Assembly: GCA_016207825.1 (NCBI GenBank) | Contig: JACQZI010000012.1 | Location: 1 to 64,000 of the forward strand | Reading direction: 5' to 3' | Source: Planctomycetota bacterium | GTDB lineage: Bacteria; Planctomycetota; MHYJ01; JACQXL01; JACQZI01 | Length of the DNA stretch: 64,000 nucleotides | Part shown: piece by piece, positions 3,875 through 51,803 of the stretch | How positions within the stretch are numbered: the stretch's first letter is position 1 | How the letters are laid out: each line of letters begins with the position of its first letter | Program-made: the position numbers and the translations under genes | Notes under the pieces: model-generated | Databases searched by the model: none | What the model was told of the DNA's origin: nothing | What the model saw: the letters and a program-made list of their open reading frames with translations, nothing else

Positions 3875-5083
3875 CTAAGCTACTTGCTTAATTCTGTAAG
3901 CATTTAACAATCCATCGGCAAATTGAATCCGTTCCACCGTTCCTTTAATTGCCTTGTCATTCTTATCCGGTTTATCTCTTGGTTTATGGGAATACCTATC
4001 ATTCGGCACCCGTCCATCCAATGCCTCGTGCGTCCGGTATTCGTTGTAATAAGCCAGATAGTCTTTCAACAGCCTATCTACCTTTGCCTTGGAGAAGAAT
4101 AAATATAGATTTAAGAGCTCATACTTGAGCGAGCGGAAGAACCTTTCTACCTTGCTATTCCCATTCGCTCTTCTGATACAGGCATAACGATGAGTAATCC
4201 CCACGCCTCTTAAGTATCGGATAAAATCACCTGCGGTGAATTGAGTCCCTTTATCAGTAATCAGGTGTTTCGGAGTGCCGTATTTCAATGCCGTTTCCTT
4301 TATCTTATCTATCGTCCATTCCGCCGTAGGATGGAATGTAGTGGCAATAACCATCGCCTTTCTGGAGAAGTGGTCTATCACTGCCAGGATATATAACGGT
4401 TTAAACCAGATATAAACCGTGGTAAAATCAATGCTCCAGATGTGGTTCGGATACTTGCCGATTATTTCCCTCATTTTTATCTTTTCTTCTTGGCTCTCCG
4501 GCCTGCGATAATCCGGTTTGGGTGAATTCAGGATATTACGCACCGTAGACGGCGAGACATATACTCCGAGTTTCCATATTGCAAAAGCTATTTTCCAGCG
4601 TCCCCAGTGTGGATTATCCCCGTGCATCTCCCAGATAAGCGCGGTGATACATAGCGGCGTGCGATAAGGCGAGATATACGAGATGCGCCTGCGCGATGCC
4701 AGATTGGAAATGCCTTTCTGCAATTGCCTGAGGTAATTAATGACAGAGGTTTTGGAAATGGGTAGATATTCCTTGATTTTACTCAATGAGATATTAAACC
4801 TGAGTTTAAAATAGATTATTTGCAGTTTCTTACAGAGGCAGAGGCGTTTGGCCTTGGCTTTATTCAGTTCCTGCCTCATCAGGGTGTTGGCGTATTTAAG
4901 CCGCCGCACTTCCTGCTTCAAATAATGGAGTTCTGACAGATAAGGCGAGGGGGTAAAGAATACAGTTTTGGCAGATTCAATTAGCCTGAAGGTTTTTCCG
5001 ATAAGCTGGCTGAAATAATAAAAAATCCAGCCGGCCCAATAATCCACGAGATAAGTCAGGATAATCAATAACCTTTTTAACAT
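3875..5083 (-). CDS. DDE integrase-core transposase with hydrophobic N-terminus
   Basis: 402 residues from an ATG at 5083 preceded by AAGGAG; the upstream in-frame start at 5116 lacks a ribosome site. The C-terminal half is a retroviral-type integrase core with the DDE triad Asp219 (IWSIDF), Asp277 (LITDKGTQF) and Glu313 (NGNSKVERFFRSLKYE), the last two 35 residues apart, followed by the YNEYRTHEAL motif typical of IS3/IS481-like enzymes. Residues 45-130 contain a coiled-coil-like stretch and HTH-like helices. Unusually, residues 1-30 are strongly hydrophobic (LLIILTYLVDYWAGWIFYYF) and look like a membrane segment. It transcribes away from the 22-bp array at 5181-5532. Terminal inverted repeats and target duplications were not found. 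Confidence 0.85.
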   Translation of the reverse strand: MLKRLLIILTYLVDYWAGWIFYYFSQLIGKTFRLIESAKTVFFTPSPYLSELHYLKQEVRRLKYANTLMRQELNKAKAKRLCLCKKLQIIYFKLRFNISLSKIKEYLPISKTSVINYLRQLQKGISNLASRRRISYISPYRTPLCITALIWEMHGDNPHWGRWKIAFAIWKLGVYVSPSTVRNILNSPKPDYRRPESQEEKIKMREIIGKYPNHIWSIDFTTVYIWFKPLYILAVIDHFSRKAMVIATTFHPTAEWTIDKIKETALKYGTPKHLITDKGTQFTAGDFIRYLRGVGITHRYACIRRANGNSKVERFFRSLKYELLNLYLFFSKAKVDRLLKDYLAYYNEYRTHEALDGRVPNDRYSHKPRDKPDKNDKAIKGTVERIQFADGLLNAYRIKQVA

Positions 5084-5180
5084 AAAAAACTCCTTATTAA
5101 AACAGTATTTTACCACACGGATTTACCGGCCCCAAATAATTTCCTGCCAACCAGCCCGATAAAGGCTATGAATCGCGCTT

Positions 5181-5532
5181 CCTTCGTACACCTATGGATG
5201 CCGCAGGTTTATATAGCCCTCTCCAGCCATGAATACCGCCATCTTGCCCGGCAAGATAACGCCTCGCCGTCCATTTATACCGTATCCGCCCGCTATGATG
5301 GGTATATTTGCAGGGCAAAAAGGGTGTGCAAGAGGCCGATAAATACGCATCTTGTATCCTCAATACACACGGTTCATATCCGGCAATAACAGCTTTTGTA
5401 CCCCATAATTAACCGGATTATGCCCGGCGATCAGCCCCATTACAGAAGGCAAGATAACGCCTCGCTCCTTAAGAACACATGCCTTTTGGCCGGCAATAAA
5501 ACCCCTTGTTTCCGGCAGGGGGAGGGGAGGTA
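5181..5532. repeat. 22-bp-period degenerate tandem array (array A, about 16 units)
   Basis: The stretch can be cut into consecutive 22-bp units with no gap, starting at 5181, 5203, 5225, 5247, 5269 and so on to 5511. Units share a (C)CGGCAA(T/G)A core near their start and a T/G-rich end; compare 5247 (CCCGGCAAGATAACGCC...), 5379 (TCCGGCAATAACAGC...), 5445 (GAAGGCAAGATAACGCC...) and 5489 (GCCGGCAATAAAACC...). Neighbouring units differ, so it is an old array with conserved columns, not a recent duplication. The last unit runs into a G-rich tract (about 5516-5541). The period is not a multiple of three and I see no convincing gene in it. Confidence 0.75.
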
Positions 5533-6590: not shown

Positions 6591-7433
6591 ATGTTGAGCC
6601 ACAGATTGCACAGATTAATGGTTATACTGGTTTTGGGGATAGGGGGAATTTGGTTTACGGCGTGGATGACCAAGCCGCCGGAACTGCCGCCTGACCTGTC
6701 TGCCAGCCAGGCAGGTGTGATCATCATTCGGCCCTTAGAAACGGGTAACAACCCTTATCAACGGGAATATGACGAGATGCTTTACCCGACAGTAAGAATC
6801 ACAACTGCCAATGGAATAGGGTCTGGCGTTGTGATTCAGAGTTCAATAGTTTCCCTAGATCCTGAAGGTCTCGGGACCTCAGGGCAAAAGCTTAATAGTT
6901 CAAAAGAAACTCGTGAACAGTTGAACAATTCAACGGTTGAACTATTTGTATTAACTGCTGCGCATGTGGTTGGAAAATATGCAGAAGTAAGCATTACGTT
7001 CTATGATTATAGCAATACTACCTTTACCACGATTACTGCTTCCGTTGTATTAACAGACACAAACAAAGACCTGGCATTGCTTAGTCTGAAAGCTGACAAC
7101 TATAATCTAAAAACTGCTGCATTAGCAGATAGGGACTATAGGTATTATCTGTTTGCCCCGGTCTATGTAGTCGGGTGTTCGTTAGGCTTAAATCCCAGAC
7201 CGTCTTCAGGAATAATCTCAGCTATCAACTTTGATTCAGTAGAAATCACCGCTCCTGTTCTACCGGGAAACTCCGGGGGGCCGGTCTACACGGCAGATAC
7301 TCATGAACTGATTGGAATTGCGGTATGGGTTCGGCTATGCGGTAATCAGCTTGTTACTACGATGGCGGGAATAGTTCCTATACAAACAATATATGAGTTT
7401 TTAGATTCAGCCACCAAGACACCAAGTCACTAA
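6591..7433 (+). CDS. Membrane-anchored trypsin-like serine protease
   Basis: 280 residues; ATG 6591 follows GAGAGGTGAGTT. An N-terminal hydrophobic segment (about residues 9-26) is a signal anchor, so the protease domain should lie outside the cytoplasm. The chymotrypsin-fold triad is present: His125 in VLTAAHVV, Asp160 in TNKDLALL and Ser228 in LPGNSGGPVY, with a normal spacing for HtrA/DegP-like enzymes but no PDZ domain. Between GSGVVIQ (about 77-83) and LFVLTAAH there is an insertion of about 35 residues (SSIVSLDPEGLG...NNSTVE) encoded by a palindromic REP-like segment (about 6859-6886, GATCCTGAAGG...CGGGACCTCAGG), which is absent from typical family members. Whether the enzyme still folds is unknown. 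It is followed by two unrecognised genes on the same strand. Confidence 0.85.
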   Translation: MLSHRLHRLMVILVLGIGGIWFTAWMTKPPELPPDLSASQAGVIIIRPLETGNNPYQREYDEMLYPTVRITTANGIGSGVVIQSSIVSLDPEGLGTSGQKLNSSKETREQLNNSTVELFVLTAAHVVGKYAEVSITFYDYSNTTFTTITASVVLTDTNKDLALLSLKADNYNLKTAALADRDYRYYLFAPVYVVGCSLGLNPRPSSGIISAINFDSVEITAPVLPGNSGGPVYTADTHELIGIAVWVRLCGNQLVTTMAGIVPIQTIYEFLDSATKTPSH

Positions 7434-7530
7434 GCCTTTGTGTTCTTTGCCCCGCTCCGCTGTGCGTAGCGGGATACCCAATTGATAGGGAGTCCCGTAC
7501 CGAAGGAACGGGATGCCTTTGTGGTGAAAG
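7411..7530. repeat. Dispersed CTTTGTG-type repeat with a nested 64-bp double-hairpin element
   Basis: The outer repeat reads CCACCAAGACACCAAGTCAC, then CTTTGTGTTCTTTG, and resumes as TGCCTTTGTGGTG at 7514; the uninterrupted form of its second half is seen at 33583-33610. Positions 7450-7513 are an inserted element with two hairpins: CCCGCT/AGCGGG and TCCCGT/ACGGGA, joined by ATACCCAATTGATAGGGAG. A reverse-oriented relative (51825-51886) sits at the same point of a similar outer repeat. Confidence 0.7.
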
Positions 7531-7548
7531 CGAAAGGGGGTGAGAGTT

Positions 7549-7902
7549 ATGAAAAGACCGGACGAGTTGAACACCTACGAATACCTGTCCATCCATTTAA
7601 TGGGAAAGCGGAGGCTCTATGAAAAGAGTTTTGCCCTGGTAAAAGAGCACACAAAAGCGCTTTCCAAATTTCGGAGCCTTACCGCTCTCATGGTTTTCTT
7701 CCGGCAGTCACGTCCGGAGGAGACCTTGCCGGTTAAAGAGGCGTTATTCAGGTTGGATAAAGAAAAACCGTCCTTGCGTCCTCAAATCGTGGAGGTGCTG
7801 ATGCTGGTCATGTGGGATGAACTGGAAAGAGAATATGGCACGCACGACGGCTTCCGGAATAGCTACTGGGATTTGATTCAGGAGTTGGAAAGCCGCAGAT
7901 AA
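7549..7902 (+). CDS. Unrecognised 117-residue protein
   Basis: ATG 7549 is preceded by the strong ribosome site AAAGGGGGTGA (7534-7544 region), which also occurs before 7959 and before the gene at 63970. The product is charged and predicted largely helical (KRPDELNTYEYLSIHLMGKRR... ELEREYGTHDGF), with no signal peptide or membrane segment. I recognise no domain. It lies between the trypsin-like protease and the gene at 7959, on the same strand and with 56 bp before the next start, so the three may be cotranscribed. Confidence 0.6.
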   Translation: MKRPDELNTYEYLSIHLMGKRRLYEKSFALVKEHTKALSKFRSLTALMVFFRQSRPEETLPVKEALFRLDKEKPSLRPQIVEVLMLVMWDELEREYGTHDGFRNSYWDLIQELESRR

Positions 7903-7958
7903 TGATATTTTTGCTCTTTAATCATTAATACTTGAATTATAGAAAGGGGGTGAGAAAG

Positions 7959-8732
7959 ATGAGACAGACATATTTGAAAATGGCGATAGACGAAACCCAA
8001 ACCGCCGACCCGGAGATAGGCGCTTTTTGGAACAGCGGGCTCGATGCCAAGGCAGGCAGGATGGATGAGCGCATGCTCGACCGCATTCCTACCGAAGAGG
8101 CATTCCTTGATACTATCGCGCAAAGGGCGGAACAGGAATACCAATCCTATCCCAATCCGGGCTACGTTTCCAAAAAAGGGCTGCCGGCTTCGGCAATTAC
8201 CGCCAAGTTTGCGGCTAATATCAAGCGGGCTTACGAGAAGTTCAAGGCGAACTGGCAAGCCATGTTTGAAAACGGGGCCGTTAAGTTCAAGGAACGGGTG
8301 GCAGGCGCGGTTCAACGTTACCTCAAAGGCATTGCCCAGAGGACGTTGCCTTTGACCGGATTCAAAAAGCTGGGTTTGGGACCGGCGGCGGTGGCGGGAT
8401 TCTGGATTACGGGTGAGAACAAAATCATCCGCGAACTGCGTTCCGGCGATACTTCCGAAGGCGGCCCTTACCGCATCTGCCCTGTCGGGGTGGAAAGCGA
8501 TTTGCGCGCCGCACTGGGCCAGAGGCTGATTAAAGCCGGCGGGGCCGTTTTAAGGTCAAGCCTGGACGACAGCACGATTTCTGCCGTCAACACGGAGATT
8601 AACCAGTTAGTCCAGCGGTATGTTGACCCGGCACTCGGTTTGGAAAGCTTTGTTACGGGCGGGGCATCCCATGTGGATTTCGTCAAGGCCAACAAGCAGT
8701 TGTATCTGGAAATCCAGGTGAGCCGGGTGTAG
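7959..8732 (+). CDS. Unrecognised protein, paralogue of the truncated gene at the window start
   Basis: 257 residues from ATG 7959, chosen because AAAGGGGGTGA ends 6 bp upstream; an in-frame TTG at 7932 has no ribosome site. The C-terminal 75 residues match the partial protein at 3-230. The middle contains a helical stretch (AAFNIKRAYEKFKANWQ-like, residues about 90-120) and a G/P-rich segment (GFKKLGLGPAAVAGFWITG). There is no signal peptide. The family is not recognised; a phage-derived structural protein is possible. Duplication of this gene on both sides of the Rhs/transposase block suggests the accessory island grew by insertion between copies or by segmental duplication. Confidence 0.65.
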   Translation: MRQTYLKMAIDETQTADPEIGAFWNSGLDAKAGRMDERMLDRIPTEEAFLDTIAQRAEQEYQSYPNPGYVSKKGLPASAITAKFAANIKRAYEKFKANWQAMFENGAVKFKERVAGAVQRYLKGIAQRTLPLTGFKKLGLGPAAVAGFWITGENKIIRELRSGDTSEGGPYRICPVGVESDLRAALGQRLIKAGGAVLRSSLDDSTISAVNTEINQLVQRYVDPALGLESFVTGGASHVDFVKANKQLYLEIQVSRV

Positions 8733-8867
8733 ACCTGTAGCGCGTAGTGAGGAATGGGCAGCGATGGGGGCGTCCTCCGGCTTTGTTCGGGACAAGTTCC
8801 TAATATAAGTTGGGGCGCTCCCTTCCGCTTCGCTCAGCGAATGGAGTTGTTTCATTTCTTTTTCAGC

Positions 8868-8896
8868 TTGACAATTGCCGATTCTCTTTGTATAAA
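8868..8896 (+). promoter_or_regulatory. Consensus promoter of the sigma-54 activator gene
   Basis: TTGACA at 8868-8873 and TATAAA at 8891-8896 are 17 bp apart. The ATG of the activator (8904) begins 7 nt after the -10 box without a ribosome site, so the transcript is predicted to be leaderless. Confidence 0.75.
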
Positions 8897-8903
8897 TATA
8901 TTT

Positions 8904-11006
8904 ATGCCGAAACGAGAACCCTTATCCGACCAGCCCGGATCCCGAAAGCATCGGGGTACGGGGTCACACGGTCTGGCGGGTTATCTGGAGCAAATCAAAT
9001 CCGCCATACTGAAAAAAGACTGGGTTGAAGCAAAACGCCACGGCGAAATTGCCGTGAAAAAACTTCCTCGCTTGTCTTATACACCCCAGGAAGAACACTC
9101 TTTATATTGCCGTATAGGAATGGTCTATTTCCAATTAACGGAATTATCCGGCTCCCTGGATAATTTTTATAAAGCGTATGCCGTGGCCTTGAAGAATAAG
9201 ATGCACTCTGCATATATAGCCTATGCGGTCCAGCAGATAGGGTTTTGCCTTTCGGCTATCCGGAATATGAATCAAGCCCTGAAACGTTTTGACGAAGTGG
9301 AGCAATATTATAAAAAATACGGCAATGATTTTCATCCGATGGGCGAATTCCAGCACCTTTATAACCTGGTCGGACTGGGATACTGCTATCTCTACCATAA
9401 GAATTACGAAAAAGTAAAGGAGCTGGTTGAAGATTATCTCCCCTTAAGCAGGATGGTTGCTTCAGAAGAAATGTTGTCTGCAGAATACCAGCACCTCAAA
9501 GGAGAGTATTTTATCCAGACTAGAGATTATATTAAAGGGCGTGAGGCGTTTCAGGAAGCCATTAAATCTGCCGGGGATATGGAATTATCTAAGTGGGTAT
9601 TGGAATCACAAATCCACATTGCCCAGATTGATGCTTTGGAAAACAAGTTAAGTAACGCTATTTGGCTTTTGAATAATATCCTTAAAAATGCCCGCAGGCT
9701 GAAACTTAATGACCTTATTTGCGAAGCCAGCCTTTTCTTAAGCAGATGTTATTCCCTTAGTAAGATGCCTGAAAAAGCTGAAGAGATAGAAAAACGAATC
9801 AGGCCTTCCTTAAATAAATTGAACACAATTTGGTTTTATGAAAAGACGCGTGAATTCGAGTCTTTTTTCCGCCAACTGGAGTCATCTAAAACCACGGGTG
9901 AATATGCGTGCCAGCCGCTTGTTGATATCCTTACCCATCGTTACGAGGCTTCGCCGAACAAACAAATCATTATCGGCACGTCTACCGCAATGCAGGAAGT
10001 TTATAACCTGATAGAAAAGACTGCGCCTACCGATTTACCCGTTTTAATCCAGGGGGAAACGGGAACCGGAAAGGAGCTTATCGCTAATGCCATCCATTCA
10101 CATAGTCATCGCACAAACAAAACCTACTTACCATTTAATTGCGGAGTGCTTCCGGAGACACTTATAGAAACAACCCTTTTTGGCCATACCAAAGGCGCTT
10201 TCACAGACGCCAAAGAAGATAAAAAAGGTTATATTGAACTCGCCTCCGGCGGAACGCTCTTTATTGATGAGATTGCTAATATGTCTCCGTCCATGCAACA
10301 AAAACTCCTGCGTGTCATGGAAGAAAAACTCGTTTGGCGTCTCGGCGCCCAGAAACCTATCCCGGTTAACACCCGTTTTATCTTTGCCAGTAACCAGCCT
10401 ATCGAGCAGCTGGTCGGGAGTAAACTCTTTCGTGAAGACCTTTTTTACCGGATTAACACTATCGTAATAAATCTTCCTCCTTTACGTGAACGCAAAGGCG
10501 ATATTCCATTGTTAATCCGGCATTTCCTCCGGAAATATGCTCCGGTTTTAATCCACAACCGGAAACCTGTTTCCCACAGGGGGATTCCCGATCAATCCAG
10601 ATTCTATCGGGAAACAAAGTGGGGCGGGGTAATCAACGACCTGCCTGAAATTTCTTCTTCGGCTCTGCAATTCCTCACCGCCTATTCCTGGCCCGGCAAT
10701 ATCCGGGAACTGGAAAACGAAATAAAACGCATCTGTGTTTTATACCCTGAAACTAAAACTATTACGGAAACAATGCTTTTAGAAACTATCCAGAATTATT
10801 CCCGGAAGGCTTTGATGTTGGGAAGCGGTAAAACGAACCTTAAGGATTTGATGGGAAATTCTGAAAAGGACATTATCAAAGAGGCTCTCGCCAAATCGCA
10901 GGGCAATGTCACCAAAGCCGCCCGCTTGCTTGGCTGCAGCCGTGTCGGGTTGCATAAAAAAATCCGCCGGTTAAAAATCACCATCCCGGATGTTACTAGC
11001 CGGTAA
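8904..11006 (+). CDS. TPR-type sigma-54-dependent transcriptional activator
   Basis: 700 residues from ATG 8904, chosen because of the promoter just upstream; the longer in-frame start at 8754 would place the promoter inside the gene. Residues about 25-340 form TPR-like helical repeats in place of a receiver or GAF domain, suggesting a protein- or peptide-sensed signal. The AAA+ domain has Walker A GETGTGKE (about 384-391), the sigma-54 loop as GAFTDA (a known variant of GAFTGA) near 431 and Walker B GGTLFIDE near 449. A Fis-type HTH ends the protein (GNVTKAARLLGCSRVGLHKK, about 665-684). Between the AAA+ lid segments an extra ~27 residues (about 552-578, SHRGIPDQSRFY) is encoded by an 8-bp inverted repeat, TTCCCGAT 10585-10592 and ATCGGGAA 10606-10613. 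A perfect sigma-54 promoter lies 130 bp downstream, so the next locus is its likely target. Confidence 0.9.
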   Translation: MPKREPLSDQPGSRKHRGTGSHGLAGYLEQIKSAILKKDWVEAKRHGEIAVKKLPRLSYTPQEEHSLYCRIGMVYFQLTELSGSLDNFYKAYAVALKNKMHSAYIAYAVQQIGFCLSAIRNMNQALKRFDEVEQYYKKYGNDFHPMGEFQHLYNLVGLGYCYLYHKNYEKVKELVEDYLPLSRMVASEEMLSAEYQHLKGEYFIQTRDYIKGREAFQEAIKSAGDMELSKWVLESQIHIAQIDALENKLSNAIWLLNNILKNARRLKLNDLICEASLFLSRCYSLSKMPEKAEEIEKRIRPSLNKLNTIWFYEKTREFESFFRQLESSKTTGEYACQPLVDILTHRYEASPNKQIIIGTSTAMQEVYNLIEKTAPTDLPVLIQGETGTGKELIANAIHSHSHRTNKTYLPFNCGVLPETLIETTLFGHTKGAFTDAKEDKKGYIELASGGTLFIDEIANMSPSMQQKLLRVMEEKLVWRLGAQKPIPVNTRFIFASNQPIEQLVGSKLFREDLFYRINTIVINLPPLRERKGDIPLLIRHFLRKYAPVLIHNRKPVSHRGIPDQSRFYRETKWGGVINDLPEISSSALQFLTAYSWPGNIRELENEIKRICVLYPETKTITETMLLETIQNYSRKALMLGSGKTNLKDLMGNSEKDIIKEALAKSQGNVTKAARLLGCSRVGLHKKIRRLKITIPDVTSR

Positions 11007-32383: not shown

Positions 32384-32471
32384 CAGGCATAAAACTATAA
32401 CCCTAAGAAAATCAACCTGTAAGAACGAAGGGGGACTACCTCCCCCCACCCCCTCTTGGCGTACGCCCCAC
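32384..32471. other. Intergenic spacer with C/G-rich boundary tract
   Basis: After the cupin stop the sequence reads through a short AT-rich stretch into a C/G-rich tract (about 32428-32470, AGGGGGACTACC then CTCCCCCCACCCCC). On the reverse strand it matches the G-rich tracts next to the arrays at 5181 and 46790. Confidence 0.5.
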
Positions 32472-32735
32472 CTGCAACACAACCCCATACCCCCTACAAC
32501 GGCTATAGTCTATACCGGCAATATACTTACCCCCAGCTTATAACAGTTACCACTATTACCTGCAACAGTTCCCAGCTATCCCTGCAACAGTTATTACCCC
32601 TGCCCATAACAGTTATACTCTATACTGGCAATATACTTACTTCCAGCCTATAACAGTTACCGCCATCCCCTGCAACAGTTACCCTGCTCCTCTACGACGG
32701 TTATACTCTCCCTCGGCAATATACGCTCTCCCCTG
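32472..32735. repeat. 22-bp-period degenerate tandem array (array B, 12 units)
   Basis: Twelve gap-free 22-bp units start at 32472, 32494, 32516 and so on to 32714. Most begin C(T/A)(G/A/T)(C/A)AAC(A)GTTA with T/C-rich ends; three are of a second type, CGGCAATATACTTAC (32516, 32626, 32714). The order of unit types repeats about every five units (110 bp), indicating an internal higher-order duplication. No gene is seen: the period is not a multiple of three and both strands contain stops. The next gene's promoter begins 36 bp after the last unit. Confidence 0.8.
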
Positions 32736-43878: not shown

Positions 43879-44403
43879 TTAAATCTTTTTACCGGGATGG
43901 AAGCCGATTTTCGGCTTAGGTTTCTCTTCTTCGGACATCAGCTGTCTAATGGCATCAAATACCGCCTTAAATTGGATATCATATTTCTTTTCCAGTTCTT
44001 CCAGCTTTTTGGCTAATTCTTTATGGGATGAAAGTATCCGGCGCAGCTTGACAAATGCTCTCATTATAGTAATATTAACCTGAATGGCGCGTTTGCTGTT
44101 TAAGATGCCGGAAAGCATTGCTACCCCCTGCTCTGTAAAAGCGTAAGGAAGGTATTTTGAATGAGAGCCTCTCTTTAAGGTGCCAAATTGGCACCTTAAA
44201 ATTTGACGATATTCTTCCCTTGTTATTGTAAACATGAAATCAATTGGGAATCTTTCTATGTTTCTTTTAACCTGCCTTTTCAGTTGTCTTGTTTCCACTC
44301 CGTAAAGGCGTGCCAAGTCGTCATCTAATATAACTTTATGCCCACGTATAAATAAGATGGCATCTTCAATCCGCTCTACAGGAATTAGAGATGTTTCTTT
44401 CAT
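43879..44403 (-). CDS. ORF6N-domain DNA-binding protein
   Basis: 174 residues. The N-terminal ORF6N domain (about 7-95) is recognisable: IEDAILFIRGHKVILDDDLARLYGVETRQLKRQVKRNIERFPIDFMF, TREEYRQILR and the KYLPYAFTEQGVAMLSGIL segment. The C-terminal part is a coiled coil (LKRQ...ELAKKLEELEKKYD), ending in a basic tail. ORF6N/KilA-N proteins are common in phages and mobile islands, where they act as antirepressor-like DNA-binding proteins. It lies just upstream of valS on the same strand, with 8 bp between, so it could be cotranscribed, but it is likely a laterally acquired gene. Confidence 0.85.
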   Translation of the reverse strand: MKETSLIPVERIEDAILFIRGHKVILDDDLARLYGVETRQLKRQVKRNIERFPIDFMFTITREEYRQILRCQFGTLKRGSHSKYLPYAFTEQGVAMLSGILNSKRAIQVNITIMRAFVKLRRILSSHKELAKKLEELEKKYDIQFKAVFDAIRQLMSEEEKPKPKIGFHPGKKI

Positions 44404-46696: not shown

Positions 46697-46755
46697 GCTT
46701 CTATCATCCTAAAACCTCATTTAATTGAGATACAAATCAATATAAGCGTTTTAGA

Positions 46756-46789
46756 CTGCACCTAGGGGGAGGGGGGTGGGTTCCTAAGC
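46756..46789. other. G-rich tract at the edge of array C
   Basis: CTAGGGGGAGGGGGGTGGG (46762-46780) followed by TTCCTAAGCG lies immediately before the first 22-bp unit. Similar G-rich tracts adjoin arrays A and B. Confidence 0.6.
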
Positions 46790-47075
46790 GGTATTAAAAA
46801 TCTACCTTAGCTGTGCCAAAAAACTGCTTTATATGTGCCAAAAATCCTCCTCTACTGTGCGCAAAATATTCCTATGCTGTGCGAAAAATCTATCTTAGCT
46901 GTGCCAAAAATCTTCCCGCGCTGTGCTTAAAATCATCCTACACTGTGCTTAAAATACTCCTATACTGTGCCAAAAATCTTCCTCAGCTGTGCCAAAAGTA
47001 TTCCTATGCTGTGCTTAAAATCTTCCTTATAGGTGCTAAAAATCTACCTCTGATGTGCGAAAAAGATAGGCGTGA
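46790..47075. repeat. 22-bp-period degenerate tandem array (array C, 13 units)
   Basis: Thirteen units of exactly 22 bp start at 46790, 46812, 46834 and so on to 47054, without any gap. The core TGTGC-N2-AAAAT occupies the same place in nearly every unit (TGTGCCAAAAATC, TGTGCTTAAAATC, TGTGCGAAAAATC), and the remaining 10 bases are T/C-rich and variable (CTTCCTATGC in many). Conserved columns with variable neighbours argue against a fresh duplication. A/T-tracts are thus placed every two helical turns. A continuous frame crosses the array because few stops occur, but it would read all three phases of the repeat and is not a credible gene. Confidence 0.85.
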
Positions 47076-47116
47076 AAATTAAAGCTCGTTAGGTGTGGAG
47101 ACTGTTCCCTTTATGA

Positions 47117-49086: not shown

Positions 49087-49105
49087 ATGCTTGCTCCTTT
49101 GTTAT

Positions 49106-49176
49106 AGTTAATTAGTTGATTAGTGAATTAGTTAATTAGTTTTAAATACAGTTAATTAGTAAACTAGTTAATTAGA
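49106..49176. repeat. AT-rich octamer-like tandem repeat (TTAATTAG type)
   Basis: Copies of GTTAATTAGT and variants (TTGATTAG, TGAATTAG) recur about every 8 bp, on one side of the four-helix-bundle gene; a reverse-oriented AATTAACTATTTAACTAAT tract lies on the other side (about 49553-49580). Confidence 0.6.
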
Positions 49177-49183
49177 GAAGTAG

Positions 49184-49543
49184 TTATTCCTTTCGTAAAG
49201 ATTTAATGTAGCTACTGATGCCTTTGCCCAAACCTTCATAAGATTTATCCATCCTTGAGAAGGTTTCTTCCGGGATATATTTTCTTCCCAAAGCAACCCT
49301 TAGGTGGCTTCTGGTTTCTTCCGCTTCGCCCCGAGCTGTATAAAGGACGCGGATTTTATCCGCAAAGTAATACCGGCCGTGGGATTCCGCAATATTAGCG
49401 ATAACGGAATTAGCCGAGTTTCTCAGCTGGGTGGTCAAGCTGTATAATTCTTCTTTGGGGAAACGGCTTGTTATATCATAGACATTCATTAATAAGTCAT
49501 AGCCGTTTTGCCATATCTTTAAGTCGTAAAACGATCCGGCCAT
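49184..49543 (-). CDS. Four-helix-bundle protein (23S rRNA intervening-sequence/bAvd type)
   Basis: 119 residues. Family motifs are clear: FYDLKIWQNGYDLLMNVYDITSRFPKEE, LTTQLRNSANSVIANIAESHGR, EAEETRSHLRVALGRKYI and the final helix. These proteins form helical bundles and occur in rRNA intervening sequences, as accessory proteins of diversity-generating retroelements, and often as stray genes. No reverse transcriptase is nearby. It is flanked by AT-rich TTAATTAG repeats, so it was probably inserted as a small element between aspC and the formiminotransferase gene. Confidence 0.92.
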   Translation of the reverse strand: MAGSFYDLKIWQNGYDLLMNVYDITSRFPKEELYSLTTQLRNSANSVIANIAESHGRYYFADKIRVLYTARGEAEETRSHLRVALGRKYIPEETFSRMDKSYEGLGKGISSYIKSLRKE

Positions 49544-51230: not shown

Positions 51231-51803
51231 TTAGGCTTCCTTTCCCATTTTATACGCATCTTTCAGCGCGGTCGGGTGTTTGGTTATATTATCTTTATAT
51301 TTAGCCAAGCCGATTAGGAGTTGTCCGCTATACTTGGCATCAAGCGCGTCAAAGAAATACTTGACTGTCAGCTTGGCGCCGTCAAATACCTTTTTCCCTT
51401 TCGTCGCCGCAGTGGATATAAAGTATCCCTTCCGTTTGGAGCTTGGAGCTTGGAGCTTGGAGCTTCGGGTTTCAATGATGTATTTCCGCGCCCAAAACGC
51501 CTGGCATCTATCCACCAATGCCTTTGCCTGGGCGGTTAATCCGTAAAAGAATATGGGCGAGGCAAGCGCAATCACATCTGCTTTTTCTATATCTTTATAA
51601 AGTCCTGTCATTTCGTCTTTAATACTGCAATTGCCGGTTTTCATGCAGGCGTAGTATTCCATGCAGGGAGTGATTTTCATCTTGCCGAGGAACACTTTCT
51701 GTATTTGGGCGCCTTTGGCTTTAGCGCCTTTAAGGAATTCATCCAGCAATTGCTGTGTGTTCCCGTTCTTCCTTGGGCTTCCGTAAATTCCCAATATTTT
51801 CAT
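51231..51803 (-). CDS. Flavodoxin-fold NADPH-dependent FMN reductase-like protein
   Basis: 190 residues from ATG 51803, chosen because the longer frame is made of dispersed-repeat sequence and has no ribosome site. The N-terminus MKILGIYGSPRKNGNTQQLL is the FMN-phosphate loop of the NAD(P)H:FMN reductase/flavodoxin family, and ASPIFFYGLTAQAKALVDRCQAFW is the second conserved block. It carries CMEYYACMKTGNCSIKDE, a cysteine-containing stretch as in iron-sulfur flavoproteins. Residues about 115-125 (ETRSSKLQAPSSKRKGY) are encoded by four 8-bp units (TTGGAGCT type, 51436-51465), an in-frame repeat insertion. It is divergently flanked by the double-hairpin element (51825-51886). Confidence 0.8.
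   Translation of the reverse strand: MKILGIYGSPRKNGNTQQLLDEFLKGAKAKGAQIQKVFLGKMKITPCMEYYACMKTGNCSIKDEMTGLYKDIEKADVIALASPIFFYGLTAQAKALVDRCQAFWARKYIIETRSSKLQAPSSKRKGYFISTAATKGKKVFDGAKLTVKYFFDALDAKYSGQLLIGLAKYKDNITKHPTALKDAYKMGKEA

Follow-up and report, generated by a model that had tools for sequence, protein, structure and literature searches.

Gap-free tandem arrays of two-helical-turn units, regularly spaced in a Planctomycetota genome, may be an undescribed chromosome-organising element

Plasmid centromeres of the iteron type, such as type II parC with ParR and type Ib parS with omega (PMC5016525), are helix-phased tandem repeats of many short units that lie upstream of their own operon. 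One or a few conserved sites are found per plasmid, with a conserved iteron, a ribbon-helix-helix protein and a motor. Chromosome-organising sites such as matS (with MatP) and the SlmA sites are scattered, with 23 matS in Ter and 50 SlmA sites (PMC3116907); each is a single 12-13-bp palindrome of fixed sequence. Borg tandem repeats are near-perfect and recent, come in several unit lengths and lie about half in ORFs (PMC9879509).

The arrays described here come from a 64,000-nucleotide stretch of a Planctomycetota contig (the window) and from other contigs of the same genome (G000). They resemble plasmid centromeres in their tandem units, which are gap-free and measure 22 or 21 bp, that is, two turns of the helix. 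However, they occupy probably about 120 chromosomal loci per genome, a number extrapolated from their mean spacing, their units are mostly unrelated, and no ribbon-helix-helix or motor protein was identified among their linked families. Because they show no conserved iteron, and no par/rep genes were found beside array C or among the linked families, they are not assigned to the iterons or partition centromeres, although they would work alike. Like matS and SlmA sites they recur tens of times, scattered along the chromosome, but each is an array 110-420 bp long whose sequence is free. Their distribution along the chromosome, the property in which they would match nucleoid-organising sites of the matS or Noc/SlmA type, is unusually regular. 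With Borg repeats they share many independent tandem regions per genome and mostly unrelated units, some Borg units being 20-21 nt long; the present arrays differ in being degenerate, intergenic, confined to 21-22 bp and regularly spaced. The part of the literature searched contains no description of such arrays.

Array C of the window (46786..47071, no strand assigned; consensus ..gcTGTGC.aAAAATcttCCT) comprises 13 tandem units, each exactly 22 bp and without indels, with a mean pairwise identity of 0.68. Its best lag-22 identity (150-bp window) is 0.76, whereas 100 first-order Markov sequences modelled on the window reach at most 0.42, and its fold score is 27.3 against a simulated maximum of 5.8. 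These values bear out the thirteen gap-free units of a preliminary description of this DNA. Columns G6, T7 and A12-A14 are invariant (13/13), G8, C9 and A15 are kept in 12 units, and T5 and T16 in 11. That description placed a TGTGC-N2-AAAAT core in nearly all units, wording that is a little too strong: the exact string has 8 occurrences and GTGC-N2-AAAA 11. It also described the other half of the unit as varying; that half is not free, as a CCT block in columns 20-22 is retained in 11 of 13 units at each column.

The period of 22 bp marks array C as non-coding, as had been proposed, and an 89-aa ORF running across it (46813-47082) has no Pfam match. Array C likewise is not a CRISPR, again in line with the earlier view: its units are 0.68 identical over their whole length, and the scanned neighbours (EF-G, an orphan ORF and an aminotransferase) gave no cas match. 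The arrays do recall CRISPR and guide-RNA arrays in combining a conserved with a variable part and in having a boundary motif, but they contain no long identical repeats or independent spacers, and their variable columns take few states. Array C lies between the ends of the EF-G gene and of a 231-aa ORF that converges on it and has no known relatives. No ParR/ParM, ParA/ParB or Rep genes were found among the scanned neighbours and no gene of the two array-linked families (F267 and F232, below) nearby; array C is thus an orphan array.

Two elements common to other arrays, neither of them mentioned in the preliminary description, stand directly before array C. The first is a 46-bp near-palindrome, CTAAAAC...GTTTTAG (46709..46754, + strand), with five copies in 0.8 Mb, four of them at most 340 bp from an array. 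The second is a G-rich boundary motif, TAGGGGGAGGGGGGTGGG (46763..46780, + strand), a kind of motif that also borders many of the genome's other arrays; 15 of 34 such motifs in the sampled genome are no more than 150 bp from an array. A search of the genome with array C recovered one sister array (C5:107980-108287) that carries both its unit and its leader, the only other array found there with the TGTGC-N2-AAAAT unit.

G000 is a 2.89-Mb draft in 42 contigs, of which 0.80 Mb (about 28%) was sampled, with genes called as longest ORFs rather than by a trained gene finder. An unbiased scan of this sample identified 32 loci with 22-bp periodicity at z of at least 5, while each of the non-triplet control periods (17, 19, 20, 23, 25, 26, 28, 29, 31, 32 and 34) gave 0-2 loci. 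The excess of lag-22 matches, which had been suggested as a check on array C, is therefore found across its own genome. A smaller subset of arrays has a period of 21 bp. Arrays contain 5-19 called units, and some arrays show 44-bp super-units. Apart from a few small families, the units of one locus mostly bear no relation to those of another. The proposal that selection acts on the motif thus does not extend to the class, whose other members share the unit length with array C but mostly not its sequence. A weak AT-rich/C-rich profile common to the units (5.3-5.4 bits versus 4.73 +- 0.10 in the null) may reflect only strand composition.

Two further 22-bp arrays lie in the window, both without assigned strand. 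One has eight called units (32504..32679), with weaker repeats out to about 32464-32728 and a C-rich boundary motif at about 32430-32455; the other is degenerate, with eight units (5341..5516, z 11.6), after which GGGGGAGGGGAGGTACCCCC stands at about 5518. Arrays are found between convergent, co-directional and divergent genes alike, a placement more in keeping with a chromosome element than with a signal at gene ends.

Spacing was measured on intergenic arrays, including a few of 21 bp, after removal of low-scoring hits inside ORFs; arrays at most 1.5 kb apart were merged into one, in the null as well. The 29 gaps on five long contigs average 23.2 kb with a coefficient of variation (CV) of 0.277, the shortest being 11.6 kb. 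Random intergenic placement gives a CV of 0.85, and none of 5000 trials was equally regular. Spacing in G003, which belongs to a different family of the order, is less regular than in G000 (CV 0.51, equalled in 20 of 5000 trials).

Relatives also contain the class: six arrays of period 22 were found in about 163 kb of G001, of the same genus, and 15 in 460 kb of G003, while 98 kb from elsewhere in the class, outside this order, contained none. SBP_bac_10 is strongly expanded in some members and absent from the control genomes, from which a placement in Planctomycetota is inferred. An exact-pattern scan for the TGTGC core in 85k genomes and IMG/VR returned nothing but perfect 22-bp repeats of unrelated kind, which fits chance picks among many tandem repeats. 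Short 22-bp arrays with a GTGC-N2-AAAA core occur in Actinobacterial genomes of Williamsia and Pseudonocardia (L040, L042, L044, L045 and L048), possibly selected by chance through the search pattern.

The 22-bp arrays are linked to F267, an orphan family of about 265 aa with 47 matches in G000, fragments included, that occurs in six genomes of this order and in no other genome tested. No convincing relative of F267 was found in Pfam, PHROG or PDB, and it has no recognisable DNA-binding domain; its structure is predicted confidently (pLDDT 89), and the model gave no fold match. The nearest array lies upstream in 15 of 16 sampled copies; at five more loci an array is no further than 1.5 kb away, again always upstream. 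At most F267 loci of G007 and G005, many on short contigs, the flank read contains no strong array. Unit sequence does not correlate with F267 relatedness (Mantel r -0.12, p 0.87), which leaves strictly cognate sequence recognition by F267 unsupported; the geometry is therefore what is conserved. What the arrays have in common is the two-turn unit and the length of the array; as a class they also lie between genes, at regular distances, and are linked to two protein families.

In the window, an F267 gene of 266 aa (7932..8732, + strand) stands downstream of the array at 5.4 kb, behind a trypsin-like gene (6591-7433), and the C-terminal part of another lies at the contig edge (3..227, + strand). 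The trypsin-like protease, a small ORF, F267 and a sigma-54 activator that matches PADLOC RtcR_PspF2--CARF_AAA_HTH form a possible operon (6591-11006). A homologue of the trypsin-like protein is also found beside F267 at C7:243980 and in G003 (C3:238223).

F232, with a helical domain and an Fn3 domain, is a phylum-wide family. Every F232 locus of the order with readable upstream DNA (11/11) has a 21-bp array upstream, at z 18-37. In a wider set, drawn largely from the phylum's other classes, the best of 27 compared upstream periods was 21 at 18 of 23 loci, or 16 of 21 without the two loci of G000, and one locus gave a best period of 20. Downstream, 21 was best at only 2 of 22. Thus, the 21-bp period pairs with F232 and the 22-bp period with F267. 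This amounts to a new, checkable rule: two-turn upstream arrays with unrelated units stand at every readable F232 gene of the order and at most of those in the phylum's other classes. Three 21-bp arrays have, on their far side, genes (C5:1307-3643, C5:21588-24125 and C5:45474-46823) for large proteins with RCC1 repeats, LamG and DUF4082 domains; their array-facing flanks are 72-82% identical in DNA over 170-309 bp, perhaps representing a common C-terminal domain.

Bacterial chromosomes are organised into domains of roughly tens of kilobases, as measured. We know of no sequence elements that set a regular spacing; elements recognisable by their period and their spacing, to which orphan protein families are linked, open the matter to experiment. 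The arrays may be an undescribed chromosome-organising element. Their best, still tentative, reading is as helically phased protein-binding sites that anchor chromosome domains, and the protein-binding, iteron-like array of the preliminary description accordingly survives as the best functional interpretation. About 5-19 gap-free two-turn units of free sequence, of 22 bp or in the sub-class 21 bp, often with a G-rich motif at the edge and repeated about every 23 kb, would present a phased geometry that some protein could read, lining up or wrapping on one face of the array. Bridging or tethering of arrays would then partition the chromosome into loops some 23 kb long. The anatomy, the specific period, the regular spacing, the occurrence in relatives and the linkage and orientation of genes are observed and support this reading; protein binding, looping and the role of F267 and F232 are inferred. 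F267 for the 22-bp arrays and F232 for the 21-bp arrays would be the first candidates for the array-reading protein or its partner, their genes standing directly behind an array much as par genes stand behind plasmid centromere arrays; against them as readers, F267 shows no DNA-binding domain, and a helical domain with Fn3, as in F232, is not a typical DNA binder. Also against the anchor reading are the roughly one third of sampled G000 arrays that alone have either gene nearby, the F267 loci of G007 and G005 mostly read without a strong array, the looser spacing in G003 and the missing 11-bp sub-period. Neither family is likely to be of plasmid or viral origin, judging from searches that gave no hits in plasmids or viruses. 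The fuller proposal is given somewhat less confidence: an undescribed 'chromosome ruler' whose loop anchors, conserved in geometry and free in sequence, would be read by or partnered with order-specific F267 and phylum-wide F232.

After these anchor arrays, which we rank as most likely, comes an unlikely but better-placed alternative than the rest, namely that the arrays serve to regulate the F267 and F232 genes, acting as operators or upstream activators. Two-turn quantised units would keep the promoter phase when units are gained or lost, and orphans such as array C would be relics left after gene loss. The upstream position in nearly all linked cases fits this, as do an array directly before an F232 ribosome-binding site (C5:24227-24541) and the F267 remnants in the genome, C-terminal fragments of about 37 aa. 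However, only about a third of the sampled arrays of G000 have an F267 or F232 gene nearby, many of the remaining two thirds are well kept (array C, z 27), the distance to the linked gene ranges from under 100 bp to 5 kb, and a 23-kb regularity is not expected of promoters. Matches to the last 37 residues of F267 lie in small ORFs, as if truncated to the 3' end, at C11:70333-70443, C14:18217-18324, C10:172556-172666, C11:40330-40461 and C31:29561-29674 of G000.

Slightly less probable again is a mutational origin, in which the arrays are functionless products of, for example, an enzyme that makes staggered cuts about 21-22 bp apart, with fill-in duplicating any local sequence. Such a machine would explain why the period is fixed while the units differ between loci, and it fits the 44-bp super-units and the rlmN locus, where a 22-bp array persists in both G000 and G001 with unrelated units. 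It would hardly produce the regular spacing by neutral duplication alone, nor the strict upstream placement, the partly conserved columns and the way in which F232 goes with 21 bp across classes and F267 with 22 bp. Bacterial minisatellites (VNTR) are also tandem non-coding units with variant repeats, but the present arrays keep one period genome-wide, are regularly spaced and accompany two protein families; the preferred period and the regular spacing speak against a neutral minisatellite.

The preliminary description had raised A-tract curvature, and phased A-tracts are indeed present in array C and its sister. Across the 22-bp arrays, however, AAA is depleted about two-fold, with CTA/GTA enriched, and no 11-bp sub-period was found. 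Curvature was thus rejected as a class feature and is peculiar to those two arrays.

It is improbable that the arrays are transcribed and act as repeated RNA hairpins or guides. The 21-bp arrays have better-than-random structure on both strands (median best z -3.9), and some units of the C5:24227 array form hairpins with matching stem changes, as judged by eye; yet a both-strand signal is equally expected of dyad DNA-binding sites, and array repetition itself inflates the folding z-scores. Array C (z -0.2 and -1.3) and most 22-bp arrays show no excess of folding, and array C has no Rfam match, so that for array C a structured RNA, as in the small-RNA template once suggested, is not supported. 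Equally improbable are recombination or insertion sites for cassettes of F267 and its neighbours: F267 has many paralogues, F267 genes stand at the ends of some contigs, the gene following the rlmN array differs between G000 and G001 and IS481-type transposases lie near two arrays, but no recombinase accompanies the arrays consistently, G000 and G003, of two different families, share the order F267-array-folD, plasmids and viruses gave no hits and the spacing is regular.

The two IS481-like transposases have integrase cores and are encoded at 3875-5116 of the window and at C7:51761-52762. The window also encodes an ORF6N-domain protein (43879-44403) that matches the PADLOC candidate defence family PDC-S05. 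Two further repeats in the window are unrelated to the 22-bp class: AT-rich 8-bp repeats (TAGTTAAT) at 49105-49186, and a perfect 7-bp repeat, TTGGAGC, present in 4.3 copies at 51436-51465.
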